Below, one piece after another: positions 19,681 through 24,881 of a DNA stretch of 64,000 bases. How positions within the stretch are numbered: the stretch's first letter is position 1; every line of letters starts with the position of its first letter. The stretch is from Xiphydria camelus. Lineage: Eukaryota > Arthropoda > Insecta > Hymenoptera > Xiphydriidae. The position numbers were made by a program, and so were the translations under genes. The notes beneath the pieces are model-generated. The model made no database searches. It had not been told where the DNA came from and saw only the letters and a list, made by a program, of their open reading frames with translations. The stretch spans positions 20,602,912 through 20,666,911 of the forward strand of contig OY783195.1 in the NCBI GenBank assembly GCA_963678675.1, given 5' to 3'.

Positions 19681-21000
19681 CAGTTAATAGATGATTTTTA
19701 TTCGCATTGGCATGTTTATGATGATATTTGCAATGAATGTTCTACTCGGATTGAAATGAGTCGTAAGGTCAGCATCGAAGCTGTAAATGATGTAGTAATA
19801 ATTACATTAAATTTATTTATGACTAAGGGCTAAATTTCAGCGGTGCATGCAAAAGGATTTCGTAAAACTATTCCAACGTCTCGAGTTAATATATGTAACA
19901 ACATATATACTGTCATAAGTGGTATCTTTACATGTGATGAAACAATTCGTCATGGTCATTGGAAAAGTATACTTAGAGAGTTGAAGGTAAAACGTCTTAA
20001 TGGATTTCTGTAGACGACCAAAATATAAGAAAAATCCGATGGCCTGTAAATTCGAAAGCGGTATATGTTTTATTTCTCCAAAATACTAAGGCAAAGTGAA
20101 AAATATAAGGGCTCTCTAGTCTATAAATCCCTTTCAAAATATCACGAGAATAAATCAAAAGTAAGTAAGTGGTTATAATTAATTGGCTCGTATCGGTATA
20201 AAATGTGAGACTTTAATTTTGTGGTAATAGAAAGCTATTCTTCTACATGTACGTATTCTCCTCGTGAATAAATTCCAAAAAGTAATGAAATCCCCCCACA
20301 AAAACAGATTCTCTGTAAAAAAAAAGGCGGCATGTTCATTCAGTGCTAACAAAAATTGATACCTATACGTAAAATACTCTCCAAAAAAGATTTGAAATCA
20401 ATTAAGATCGCCATGTTCCAGATTTATATATAAAAAGTAAAAGGCATCATTTGAAAGGAAAATTATTGTAAATCAAGTTACTAAAAAATTCGACTAAAGA
20501 ATTTATAAAAAAAAATTTAATAAAAAAGAACTTGCCTCGTTTTTTTCCTTCAAAATAAAAAATTCAGACAGAAATATACTCGATGTTTATGCACTTATGA
20601 TTTTAAATAAATTCATACACTTATATGATACCACCAGTATACCGAATGTCGCACGGGAAACCAATCAGGCGGGGGCCTTTTGAATTTCTCTGAATTTGAC
20701 TTCGGCAGTGCAATTTATGAAATATCCAGATAGCAAAATGTAGTCACAATGCACGCACTGTGAGTGCACGCGTGCGCTTTAAGTCGCACGCGTGCGACGC
20801 ATTTGGCCTTACATATGTGCGCGCATATGCGTCGCATTTGAGGCGCACGAGTGCTACTTGACGCATGCACGAAAATGTCGCGGGAAATTCAACACCGTTA
20901 GAAAATTAATATGGATTCTACGTAAATGTTTACAATAAATGACACAATTTTTATGAGTAAATCCGTTATTCATTTATTATTATAATATAATACATAGTGT

Positions 21001-21740
21001 TATACATGACAATACAATTTGAGAAGTATATTTTGAGAGTTACGTTGTTATCAGTCTGTTAAGTAAGAGCGCGTACGGCGTTATTCATAAAAGACTTATT
21101 CGACAATGTTTTTTCCACATACATACGTTTGACATGTTCCAAGGCAATACGCTATTATATTAATAATGAGTCCAATCATCACCGTCGATAATCGCTTGGC
21201 ATCTCCGAGGTATACTATCCATCAAATTTTCGTTGGTGGTGATTGGACTCATTATCAACTGTAATTGCGCAATGCGTTGGAATATGTAAAACGTATGTAT
21301 GTGAAAAAAAATTGTTGTGTGAAATTATACATAAGTAATATTAATATATATACATAGTTATACATGACAAATAGTGATACGTGACATAGTTATACATGAC
21401 AATACATTTTGAGAAGTACATTTTGAGAGTTACGTTGTTATCAGTCTGTTAAGTAAGAGCGCGTACGGAGTTATTCATAAAAAACTTATTCGACAGTGTT
21501 TTTTCCACATACATACGTTTGACATGTTCCAAGGCAATACGCAATAATATTAATAATGAGTCCAATCACCACCGTCGATAATCGCTTGGCATCTCCAAGG
21601 CATACTATCCATCAAATGTTCGATGGTGGTGATTGGACTCATTATCAACTGTAAATGCACAATGCGTTGGAATATGTAAAACGTATGTATGTGGAAAAAA
21701 CATTGTTGAATACATTTTTTATGAATAACGCCGTACGTGC
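21001..21740 (+). repeat. Tandem pair of about 390-base units, each a hairpin
   Basis: Units start near 21001 and 21390 with ATACATGACAATACA, GAGAGTTACGTTGTTATCAG and GTAAGAGCGCGTACGG. Each holds a perfect-looking stem of AATGAGTCCAATCA and TGATTGGACTCATT around CGCTTGGCATCTCC, the last matching the 3' part of the Tc1 relic at 3945. An inverted copy of the CGTACGGCGTTATTCAT block ends the array, and one more lies at 22720. Confidence 0.75.
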
Positions 21741-21750
21741 TCTTACTTAA

Positions 21751-22138
21751 CCCTTACTTGCCACACTTCTATAGAATCACGTACTTGCCACACTGGGGTT
21801 GATTTACACCCCAGCGAGAAAAATTGTTATAACAAACAAATTATTGCATATTTGGACTTGAAAATTTTATCAACTCTTCTTAAGAGCGTGCTTTAAAAGG
21901 CAGTGGAACTTGTATAGCCAGAACTTAAAATTAAGTATGCGAAAAAAATCAAATATTAAAGTTACACGGTCTTTTAAAGTACGCTCTTAAGATGAGCTGG
22001 TAAAATTTTCAAGTACACAAATATGCTATAATTTATTTATTATAACAATTCTTCTCGCTGAGGTGTAAATCAACCCCAATGTGGCAAGTACGAATTTTAC
22101 CATGGGGTGGTTTCGAACCCCAGTGTGGCAAGTAAGGG
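21751..22138. mobile_element. piggyBac-like MITE, TTAA-flanked
   Basis: Ends CCCTTACTTGCCACACT and its inverse AGTGTGGCAAGTAAGGG, bordered by TTAA at 21747-21750 and 22139-22142. Inner inverted blocks include TTGTTATAACA and AAGAGCGTGCTTTAAAA. The CCCTT start plus TTAA target is characteristic of piggyBac-type elements. No protein. Confidence 0.85.
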
Positions 22139-22314
22139 TTAACAGACCTATCTTATGAGATACACTGTCAAATTAAGGGTTAAACAATTGAAGGGTTCCT
22201 TTCAAAAACAACACTTGTCAAAAACGACAATCCCCGTAGTATTGGTAATAATGCCTACTCTTTCGTTGTATCTAGTCGTGTTGTAGTGCCTACTCTTTCA
22301 TTATAATATAATGA

Positions 22315-22512
22315 CATGAAAGAAATTTTAAGGGCGACAAAACAGAGGCACAAAAATTTTGGAGAAGAAATTCCGACAAGAAACGGAATAAGGCTTTGCC
22401 GGGATTGGAAACGGAGGACGAAACCGCTGCAAAAATTGAGGAACTAAAAGAAACACTTGGCATCACCGAAGAAAATGTCGATGAACTTTCGGACGTTCGG
22501 AGCGATGGTTAA
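22315..22512 (+). other. Charged open frame, possible second captured fragment
   Basis: 65 sense codons ending in a stop at 22510-22512, with no upstream ATG in frame. The reading contains KGDKTEAQKFWRRNSDKKRN and AAKIEELKETLGITEENVDE: highly charged and helix-prone. I do not recognise it. Its composition differs from the AT-rich repeats around it, as does that of the kinase fragment downstream. Confidence 0.35.
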
Positions 22513-22527
22513 ATATTGTGTATTTAA

Positions 22528-22613
22528 CCCTTACGTGCACACGCTTAAATTTTGTTTCCCGTCAGTATACGCTAGCGGTGCGGTACGGAGTGCCGCTTAG
22601 CGTGCACATAAGG
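22528..22613. mobile_element. Mini piggyBac-like MITE, 86 bases
   Basis: Ends CCCTTACGTGCACACGC and its inverse GCGTGCACATAAGGG, bordered by TTAA (22524-22527, 22614-22617). Its terminus resembles but is not identical to that of the MITE at 21751. Confidence 0.8.
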
Positions 22614-22624
22614 GTTAATATTAC

Positions 22625-22708
22625 ATACCGTCGGCTTACTTGTTAAACCTTCCAAGTCCGATTTTCGGACATAGGACTTAGTAGGTTTTACAAGTAAGCT
22701 GACGATAT
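22625..22708. repeat. Hairpin
   Basis: GTCGGCTTACTTGTTAAACC and the inverse GGTTTTACAAGTAAGCTGAC pair over about 38 bases, with CCAAGTCC and GGACTTAG inside. Probably another MITE. Confidence 0.65.
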
Positions 22709-23272: not shown

Positions 23273-23350
23273 CTGGAAGGAGAGAACGCGTGCATTGTAC
23301 ATCGACTAAACGCGCGCAGACAATTTCTAACGATATAGATATGTACTCAC

Positions 23351-23447
23351 GAGAATGTTGTTGAATCTCTTTGGAGTACTTGGAACTGCTGTCGCTTTGG
23401 AACAGAGTTATGGCCTTTGTGTCCAATCACCAGTAGTGTCTCTTCCT
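23351..23447 (-). pseudogene. Protein kinase D fragment: PH domain exon
   Basis: Flanked by an acceptor TTTTCAG and a donor GTGAGT, so genomic rather than processed DNA was copied. It reads RKRHYW, a TGA where the family has Arg (a CGA to TGA change fits), then LDTKAITLFQSDSSSKY and SKEI. These are the first strands of the PH domain. The end is slightly diverged from the family pattern, possibly a small deletion. Confidence 0.85.
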
Positions 23448-23513
23448 CTGAAAACACAAGAGTCTTAATGACGGAGGAAGCGAAACCGAATCAGCGCCAC
23501 GTCGTCGACCTAC

Positions 23514-23615
23514 CATTGGATCGCGATTCATCGAATGCACCATCCATCCTTCCTTCAGGATCTTGGAGCCGCGTCGTTTTGTGTGCTTGACGCTTTGAAC
23601 TATTCGCATCTGCAA
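23514..23615 (-). pseudogene. Protein kinase D fragment: exon before the PH domain
   Basis: Exactly 34 codons between an acceptor (AACGCAG) and a donor (GTAGGT): LQMRIVQSVKHTKRRGSKIL followed by KEGWMVHSMNRDPM. It joins in phase 0 to the next exon (RKRHYW). The IVQSVKHTKR block and KEGWMVH are hallmarks of protein kinase D immediately before and at the start of its PH domain. No stop in this exon. Confidence 0.88.
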
Positions 23616-23722
23616 CTGCGTTATCGCGTATGAGGTACCAAGTGTGACGGAGAGTGTGATGGAGAAGAAAAAAAAGATAAAGTATTGCAAGTGTCGAGAT
23701 ACGACATTGATTGAATAATTAC

Positions 23723-23783
23723 CTCGATGGTCTGGACCTTGAAATGCGTCGGAAGATGCGTCGTCGTGGCATGGAAAGAGGTC
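23723..23783 (-). pseudogene. Possible further protein kinase D exon
   Basis: A 61-base open segment with acceptor-like TTTCCGTAG and donor GTAATT sits one short intron upstream of the previous exon. In the linker of protein kinase D sequence is poorly conserved, so homology is not evident; the assignment rests on splice signals and position. Confidence 0.35.
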
Positions 23784-24007
23784 CTACGGAAATATCAAAC
23801 GCGTAAAATGATTCGTAGTGCACTTTCCTCGTGTTTCCTTGTGTTTATGCGATGAGAGGGGGGAGGATGACAGGTTGGCTTATTGAATTAGTTAAGTTAG
23901 GTTAATTACTTGATTAGTGTGGTATTTGAATCAGCCCATCCGCGCACAGTACCTGTAACTGGAAATATTACGCCAACGTTGGAGAAACAGTAGATCATGC
24001 GGCGAGA

Positions 24008-24052
24008 GAGCCCTCGGTTAATCCGGAGCCTCGGTTAACCGAGAGTCTACTG
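24008..24052. repeat. pogo/Tigger-like terminus fragment
   Basis: CTCGGTTAACCGAGAGTCTACTG followed by TA resembles the terminus of pogo-type elements (reverse: CAGTAGACTCTCGGTTAACC). A second CTCGGTTAATCCGGAG block sits beside it. No transposase nearby. Confidence 0.5.
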
Positions 24053-24881
24053 TACAGTCGCGGGCGCGACTTGGCGACGGCGTCATGCCGGCCGCCATTC
24101 GCACGCGTCGCAACTTGTTGCGCGCCGTTGTCACTTCGTATACGAACACGTTCCCTGCGTATCAAAATGATTGAATTAACCCCCGTACTAAAATCTTGAA
24201 ATTTACGTAAAACTATGTTGGCATGCCGTGTAAATCCACGCTTTGCTATCGGGGTTGGTGCTACTTGGTTACAAAAAGCACTCGTCTCATCGCGTGCGCT
24301 CAAAACTCACGCGTGACTTCATTTTGACTGCGTAGTAGAGTGCACGCGTGAGACCGCACGTCGTGCGTCCTACGTGCGACACACGATTGCTATCTGGGTA
24401 CTCTAGCACCGTCCAAGCACTACCAATTATTCGGTATAGTGGACAAAAGATGAAAACTTAAACGCGGCAAGTTCTTTTTTATTACAATTTTTTTATAAAT
24501 TCTTTAGTCAAATTTTTTAGTAACTTGATTTACAATAATTTTCCTTTCAAATGATGCCTTTTACTTTTTATATATAAATCTGGAACATGGCGATCTTAAT
24601 TGATTTCAAATCTTTTTTGGAGAGTATTTTACGTAGGTATCAATTTTTGTTAGCACTGAATGAACATGCCGCCTTTTTTTTTTACAGAGAATCTGTTTTT
24701 GTGGTAGGGACCTTACCGAATAAACCTGAATGGATTTCGACAAATTATTAAACTTAGAAAAATTGCGTGATAAATTAACCGAGTAGAAAACTGAAATAAA
24801 TATTTGTATTTGTCAATGAGCTATTAAACATTGTTATTGAAGTACAAAAAATTCAGAAAATGGTAGCCTATTTCCACATCC

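Follow-up and report, generated by a model that had tools for sequence, protein, structure and literature searches.

We found that the 64,000-nucleotide stretch of Xiphydria camelus DNA analysed here (the window; contig OY783195.1, G000:C17:20602912-20666911) carries, at 20725..24398, a DNA transposon with short terminal inverted repeats (TIRs) that holds a piece of the host gene for protein kinase D (PKD). The element is very probably one copy of a high-copy, non-autonomous Pack-TIR family in which a cassette of host PKD was captured and then spread as at least two subfamilies, here called A and B; the window copy belongs to family A. The genome searched comprised 357 Mb in 38 contigs. An earlier note, made from the letters of the window, had described a non-autonomous element bearing a host PKD piece, and this description was borne out, but the element is a member of a high-copy family and not one captured element.

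An intact PKD gene was located on contig C28 with a kinase-domain query, and its kinase exon lies in a 438-aa open frame (C28:66533-67474). Over the query region, the source protein shares 93% identity with the PKD proteins of two sawflies, Cephus cinctus and Athalia rosae, which are top among the proteins listed, in agreement with the insect host assumed earlier. The captured fragment occupies 22749..23829 on the minus strand of the window and aligns contiguously, introns included, with positions 329-1500 of the source gene (gene strand; reverse complement of locus L049). It consists of five exon pieces and four introns. The earlier note had recognized PKD content correctly in four segments, but had overlooked an exon piece at 23723..23783, had given other limits for the fragment, and had misplaced the end of exon 3, which lies at 23090 with the donor GTACGT. 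The exon preceding the PH domain (23514..23610, minus strand) has lost its 5′ part, the first bases of exon 1 having been removed by a 28-bp deletion. In the next exon, which encodes part of the PH domain (23351..23447, minus), 36 bp are deleted and a stop TGA stands at 23429-23427; a further PH-domain exon (23090..23272, minus) has a stop TAG at 23189-23187, and the truncated kinase-start exon (22749..23014, minus) has stops at 22886-22884 and 22793-22791. The four stretches were translated, trimmed and typed in as a protein query in which X replaced the stops; this query matched PDB entries for the PKD2 and PKD3 PH domains (2coa, E 2e-23; 2d9z, E 2e-21) and Pkinase in Pfam (E 3e-11).

With gaps excluded, the exons of the window piece are 93.9% identical to the source (43 differences of 710) and the introns 88.4% (37 differences of 320); the gapped alignment as a whole is 85.8% identical. 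Most intron differences fall in the indel-rich first intron, without which 12 differences of 215 are left. The consensus of 38 family A sequences, again with gaps excluded, is 94.7% identical to the source in exons and 88.8% in introns, and differs from it by 14 synonymous, 21 non-synonymous and 3 stop changes. Pack-TIRs are defined by a host source that can be traced at 90% identity or more and at 80-120% of its length. Here 1081 bp correspond to 1172 bp of source, and the identity is above that threshold in the window exons and in family B (92.7%), but below it in the window introns alone and in the whole gapped alignment. The piece is a copy made at the DNA level, with introns. A retroposed (processed) PKD pseudogene later acquired by a transposon would also leave a pseudogene, which the piece is; however, source introns 1-4 are all present and aligned, which rules out an RNA route and leaves this explanation with practically no chance of being correct.

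The left TIR, TCCAGATAGCAA (20725..20736, plus strand), and the right TIR, TTGCTATCTGGG (24387..24398, minus strand), are flanked by a TA target site duplication at 20723..20724 and 24399..24400. At the first element position, 20725, the window has T where the other copies with ends listed, which read CCCAGATAGCAA, have C; the family ends can also be written CCCAGATAGCA. When the flanks were joined by a single TA with the element removed, all 40 scored places of 1855 candidates matched the full 252-base query at 98-99%, the genomic spans measuring 252-254 bases. These element-less matches confirm the insertion and the ends of the element, as the earlier note had placed them, and fit an element of 20725-24398 with TA duplicated on insertion. 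The surrounding sequence is itself a repeat, with inverted arms at 20296-20542 and 24460-24704, and its interior was matched at 40 of 40 scored places (1855 candidates). The Pack element is thus inserted inside a copy of another high-copy inverted-repeat element; its placement in the intron of another gene, proposed earlier, was unsupported.

Within the element, the 3′ capture junction of family A (22725..22758, minus) joins PKD sequence ending in GAGGATGTTC to element sequence, with one mismatch in the window copy. The 5′ capture junction (23816..23850, minus) is common to families A and B, the exact breakpoint being placed within a few bases. Whole-genome counts with short words, allowing up to three mismatches, placed a 37-bp PKD word at 196 places, of which one is the source gene and 195 are non-source; the 5′ junction word was found at 175 places and the family A 3′ junction word at 50, and the reversed control gave 0 matches for each word. 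The left-end query gave at least 124 matching stretches from 40 scored of 731 candidates, 36 of them beginning no more than 8 bases from the end. All 40 scored of 332 candidates matched the right-end query, every one reaching the end. With the PKD query, at least 41 stretches of at least 889 bp were obtained from 40 scored of 430 candidates, at 96-98% identity apart from the window itself. A single-copy element with no related ends, which the earlier note had considered as an alternative outcome, is not what these end queries and word counts show; nor does the kinase segment run past the TIRs, since the PKD homology stops inside them on both sides. A chance TIR element beside a segmentally duplicated PKD locus would account for the high identity to the source and for nothing else that was found. 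This explanation is contradicted by the ends of the homology inside the TIRs, by the recurrence of the same junctions and by the empty-site sequence restored on removing the element and one TA, and must be regarded as exceedingly improbable.

The family A alignment contains 38 distinct sequences, some of them partial, and rows with altered context were left unscored. Four in-frame stops were verified against the source frame in the window copy, in line with the earlier judgement that the piece is nonfunctional as a coding sequence. The change of R to TGA is present in 36 of 36 scored A sequences and that of Q to TAG in 31 of 31. A third stop, K to TAG, was found in 23 of 30, with AAG kept in 6 and CAG in 1, and the fourth occurs in the window copy only (1 of 34). 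Divergence from the A consensus is 1.17% in exons and 0.84% in introns, and A sequences differ from their consensus by 0.5-2.4%. Because the exons are no more conserved than the introns among copies, the piece is not maintained as coding sequence, and no coding constraint is seen among A copies. The reading frame is broken in the copies read. The PKD piece is passenger DNA, with no function supported.

Family B was recognized with a source DNA query (positions 1-1600), for which the 40 scored of 237 candidates were the source and 39 other places. Each of the 39 matches source positions 329-1561 at 92-93%, and none is among the listed stretches of the PKD query above. Family B therefore retains more of the PKD gene than A, its 3′ end lying at source position 1561 and that of A at 1500. 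The one B locus read, L051, keeps pieces that are gone from A and carries three stops of its own. Its right end is TTTGCTATCTGGG. Of 639 candidates for this end, 40 were scored and all matched with 99-100% identity: in 20 of them the match stops precisely at the final TIR base, in 19 more no more than 10 bases from it, and the one row left is L051 itself. A comparison by hand at four places put the B right end at 2.08-2.10 kb beyond the PKD piece.

The A consensus and L051 have in common the 5′ breakpoint, 56 bp of adjoining non-PKD flank, several indels, and 14 exon and 27 intron changes relative to the source; private exon sites number 24 in A only and 15 in B only. In a FastTree phylogeny rooted on the source, all 38 A sequences group in a single clade with support 0.99, and L051 stands beside it. 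Independent captures of PKD by the two families could be proposed, as their 3′ ends differ, their bodies are largely different, and a further fragment of the gene (source 1505-1962, locus L050) lies next to the end of a RAG1-like gene. Yet the same breakpoint and flank, the common indels and the 41 common substitutions speak against this, as does L042, which looks like a mosaic, B-like on one side and A-like on the other. We consider independent captures very unlikely. As judged from the shared junction, flank and derived changes, one capture followed by two bursts would be the simplest reading.

The further fragment lies at C6:17672570-17673028, contains one stop and is 95.6% identical to the source, with a 57-bp overlap with the B piece. 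It stands near B-like sequence pieces and the end of the RAG1-like gene, of which L050 2338-3186 represents the C-terminus (a RAG1-like transposase gene). Relatives of this gene match Pfam RAG1 with E 3.5e-7 (P0041), and the L050 frame with 0.0015, below the curated cut-off. All 137 scored candidates (of 811) matched the L050 RAG1-like end, several of them in open frames of at least 700 aa. On the strand that carries the fragment, about 3 kb away, a PKD word is present at C6:17676019, and the RAG1-like gene end separates the two (C6:17672570-17676055), so that the C6 locus may represent one longer capture split into two parts, or else an event of its own. At three other places the match to the source kinase exon covers 92 bp and runs 20 bp beyond B. 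The RAG1-like gene was considered as a mobilizer of the family and set aside: its relatives are abundant, yet the link is unproven because no CCAGATAGCAA end was seen at the L050 locus.

Composite transposition has also been weighed, in which two neighbouring elements flanking a PKD duplicate would have mobilized the cassette, with internal rearrangement afterwards. Repeated internal blocks are indeed present: in the window copy, direct repeats at 20992-21317 and 21384-21708 (within 20992..21708) are 94% alike, and inverted copies of parts of them occur. Relatives of the element are adjacent or nested in L047 and L042, and a TIR-like sequence, CCCGATAGCAAA, is found at 24253, inside the right end of the window element. 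The B features recur at G000:C10:7859812-7875549, where four repeats spaced exactly 4141 bp apart suggest a tandem array. Against it, no further TIR-like site (up to one mismatch in CCAGATAGCAA) was detected in the window copy where the PKD piece begins or ends, and this route seems unlikely.

The common 5′ junction and the TIR-bounded spread are as expected if gene DNA was copied into an element that then transposed. An ancestral TIR element would have gained a contiguous DNA-level copy of host PKD of about 1.2 kb with introns. This copy would have run from the exon ahead of the PH domain into the kinase exon, extending there at least 61 bp beyond the present limit of the window copy. Template switching, or gap repair, at an element that was broken or stalled may have produced it; replication fork switching has been proposed for multicopy cases in the passages of Tan et al. 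cited here (PMC8277862). The pre-capture element sequence, needed for a comparison of microhomology, was not found in our searches. A transposase acting in trans, possibly CACTA/EnSpm-like, would then have moved the cassette, which spread as at least two subfamilies: A has lost more of the gene and carries the shared stops, and B retains more of it, with nearly identical right ends.

Several points weigh against this account of the family. The figures of 196 and 175 places are counts of short words, and the places read amount to 38 distinct A sequences and one B locus. Family B is taken to be a complete TIR element on the strength of its right end, the left end lying outside L051. In a comparison made without an outgroup, the differences common to A and B may partly be changes in the source gene. 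The longer or separate PKD fragment at L050 is not fitted into the capture history. Among the TIR-to-TIR pairs described below, 2 of 12 are without a matching duplication (L047 and L043), and no transposase was found for the family, none being recognized in the loci read.

A script that covered 21 sources, the window plus loci L029-L048 but not the short loci L001-L028, found twelve TIR-to-TIR pairs, and matching 2-bp flanks were observed in 10 of them: TA in 5, GT in 2, CA in 2 and AA in 1. Of the two exceptions, L047 adjoins another element, and in L043 the script had taken an inner TIR-like site as the partner. The target duplication is two variable bases and the family is not TA-specific; the TA noted earlier at both ends holds for the window copy but varies across copies. 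As the duplications are not restricted to TA, 5 of 10 being GT, CA or AA, membership in Tc1/mariner was ruled out. The same TIR is present at both ends, and transposition is demonstrated by these duplications together with the empty site.

The octamer CACGCGTG, a palindrome, occurs four times in the window element, two near either end (20767-20774 and 20787-20794, within 20767..20794; 24308-24315 and 24343-24350, within 24308..24350). Subterminal repeats are a trait of CACTA transposons. The short TIR, the 2-bp duplication, which falls within the 2-3 bp of CACTA/EnSpm (CMC) elements, and the subterminal repeats hint at a CACTA/EnSpm-like system; this is a lead that does not place the family there, as the TIR begins with CCCAG and not with CAC. 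No transposase was recognized in the window element, as the earlier note had stated, its longest stop-to-stop frame (118 aa) being PKD sequence. Neither an autonomous copy nor a CMC transposase was recognized among the loci read. An open frame of about 560 aa in L047 was rejected as the family transposase: it belongs to a nested element at about 4810-7120 of that locus, with CACTG...CAGTG ends and, by eye, an apparent TAA duplication, and matched no Pfam family above cut-off. The first 134 aa of this frame have no counterpart in the other loci examined. In L043, a piece resembling a mariner/Tc-like transposase (by eye) lies at 4714-5124, within a related TIR element.

The window element also contains, at 22310..22506 on the plus strand, a frameshifted gene tail, of which copies L047 and L048 have a longer stretch. 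This tail matched no Pfam family above cut-off, and DUF4806, considered as a candidate, was not supported by Pfam. One frame each of other cargo from L046, L032, L051 and L044 likewise gave no Pfam family above cut-off. Short elements resembling miniature inverted-repeat transposable elements, with the related end CCAGATAGAAAA, are present at 5559-5710 and 45230-45405 of the window, and Copia-like retrotransposon frames, judged by eye, at 33239-37244. On the minus strand at 1841-2644 there is an exon of a rhodopsin-type G-protein-coupled receptor (7tm_1, E 1e-34, profile positions 83-260), which was considered as part of a possible host gene around the insertion, but a simple motif search found no upstream exon within the window.

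A piece of a signalling gene was captured here, and bursts then brought its sequence to nearly 200 places. The source, the less decayed B, the more decayed A, the mosaic and the further fragment form a natural series from which the order of capture, truncation and amplification can be worked out. The system is suited to asking whether amplified gene fragments yield small RNAs against their own source. Exact 25-mers of the PKD mRNA are shared with the B copy read in 242 of 805 cases and with the window copy in 126 of 805. It is doubtful that the amplified cassettes act on source PKD in trans; if they did, copies transcribed in either sense could feed PIWI-interacting or small interfering RNAs and tune PKD, or PKD could be driven to diverge and escape such small RNAs.

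Gene-carrying TIR elements have been surveyed in 100 animal genomes (Tan et al., 2021; PMC8277862), and the statements that follow concern the passages cited from this and the other papers. The survey reports 370 Pack-TIRs, 87% of them in hAT or Tc/mariner; they are almost always single-copy, with four multicopy cases, three copies in the example shown and, in the passage cited, none in insect reference genomes. As in those elements, traceable host DNA lies here between the TIRs of one DNA transposon, and, as in the multicopy cases, distinct target duplications show repeated transposition; here, in contrast, the PKD word occurs at the 195 non-source places and two subfamilies were amplified. 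Ssk-FB4 of Drosophila melanogaster is likewise an insect multicopy Pack element with a host gene, but has 9-10-bp duplications, TIRs of about 700 bp, four copies and a protein called selected by the authors (PMC8277862), whereas the TIRs of the family described here are short, its duplications measure 2 bp and its coding sequence is broken. No insect or hymenopteran counterpart appeared among the papers listed in searches of the open-licence literature. Turmoil-1 of C. elegans is also an animal DNA transposon with captured coding pieces; unlike our element, it is of the Harbinger type and carries the pieces within the inverted repeats themselves (PMC2572040). CACTA/CMC elements with 2-bp target duplications, as here, include the tunicate ENS1_Cis and viral MITEs; they end in CAC...GTG (PMC6004678), whereas the ends here are CCC...GGG and no CMC transposase was found. 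Plant Pack-CACTA and Pack-MULE elements are, like this family, non-autonomous TIR elements that amplify gene fragments, although the CACTA ends in that work begin with CACTACAA and 5-nt duplications are given for CACTA (PMC8903248), compared with CCCAG and 2 bp here. Against the single-copy pattern of the animal survey (PMC8277862), a plant-like outcome is thus seen in an insect. The kind of element is already known; the copy number and the history of two families from an apparent single capture are unusual for an animal.

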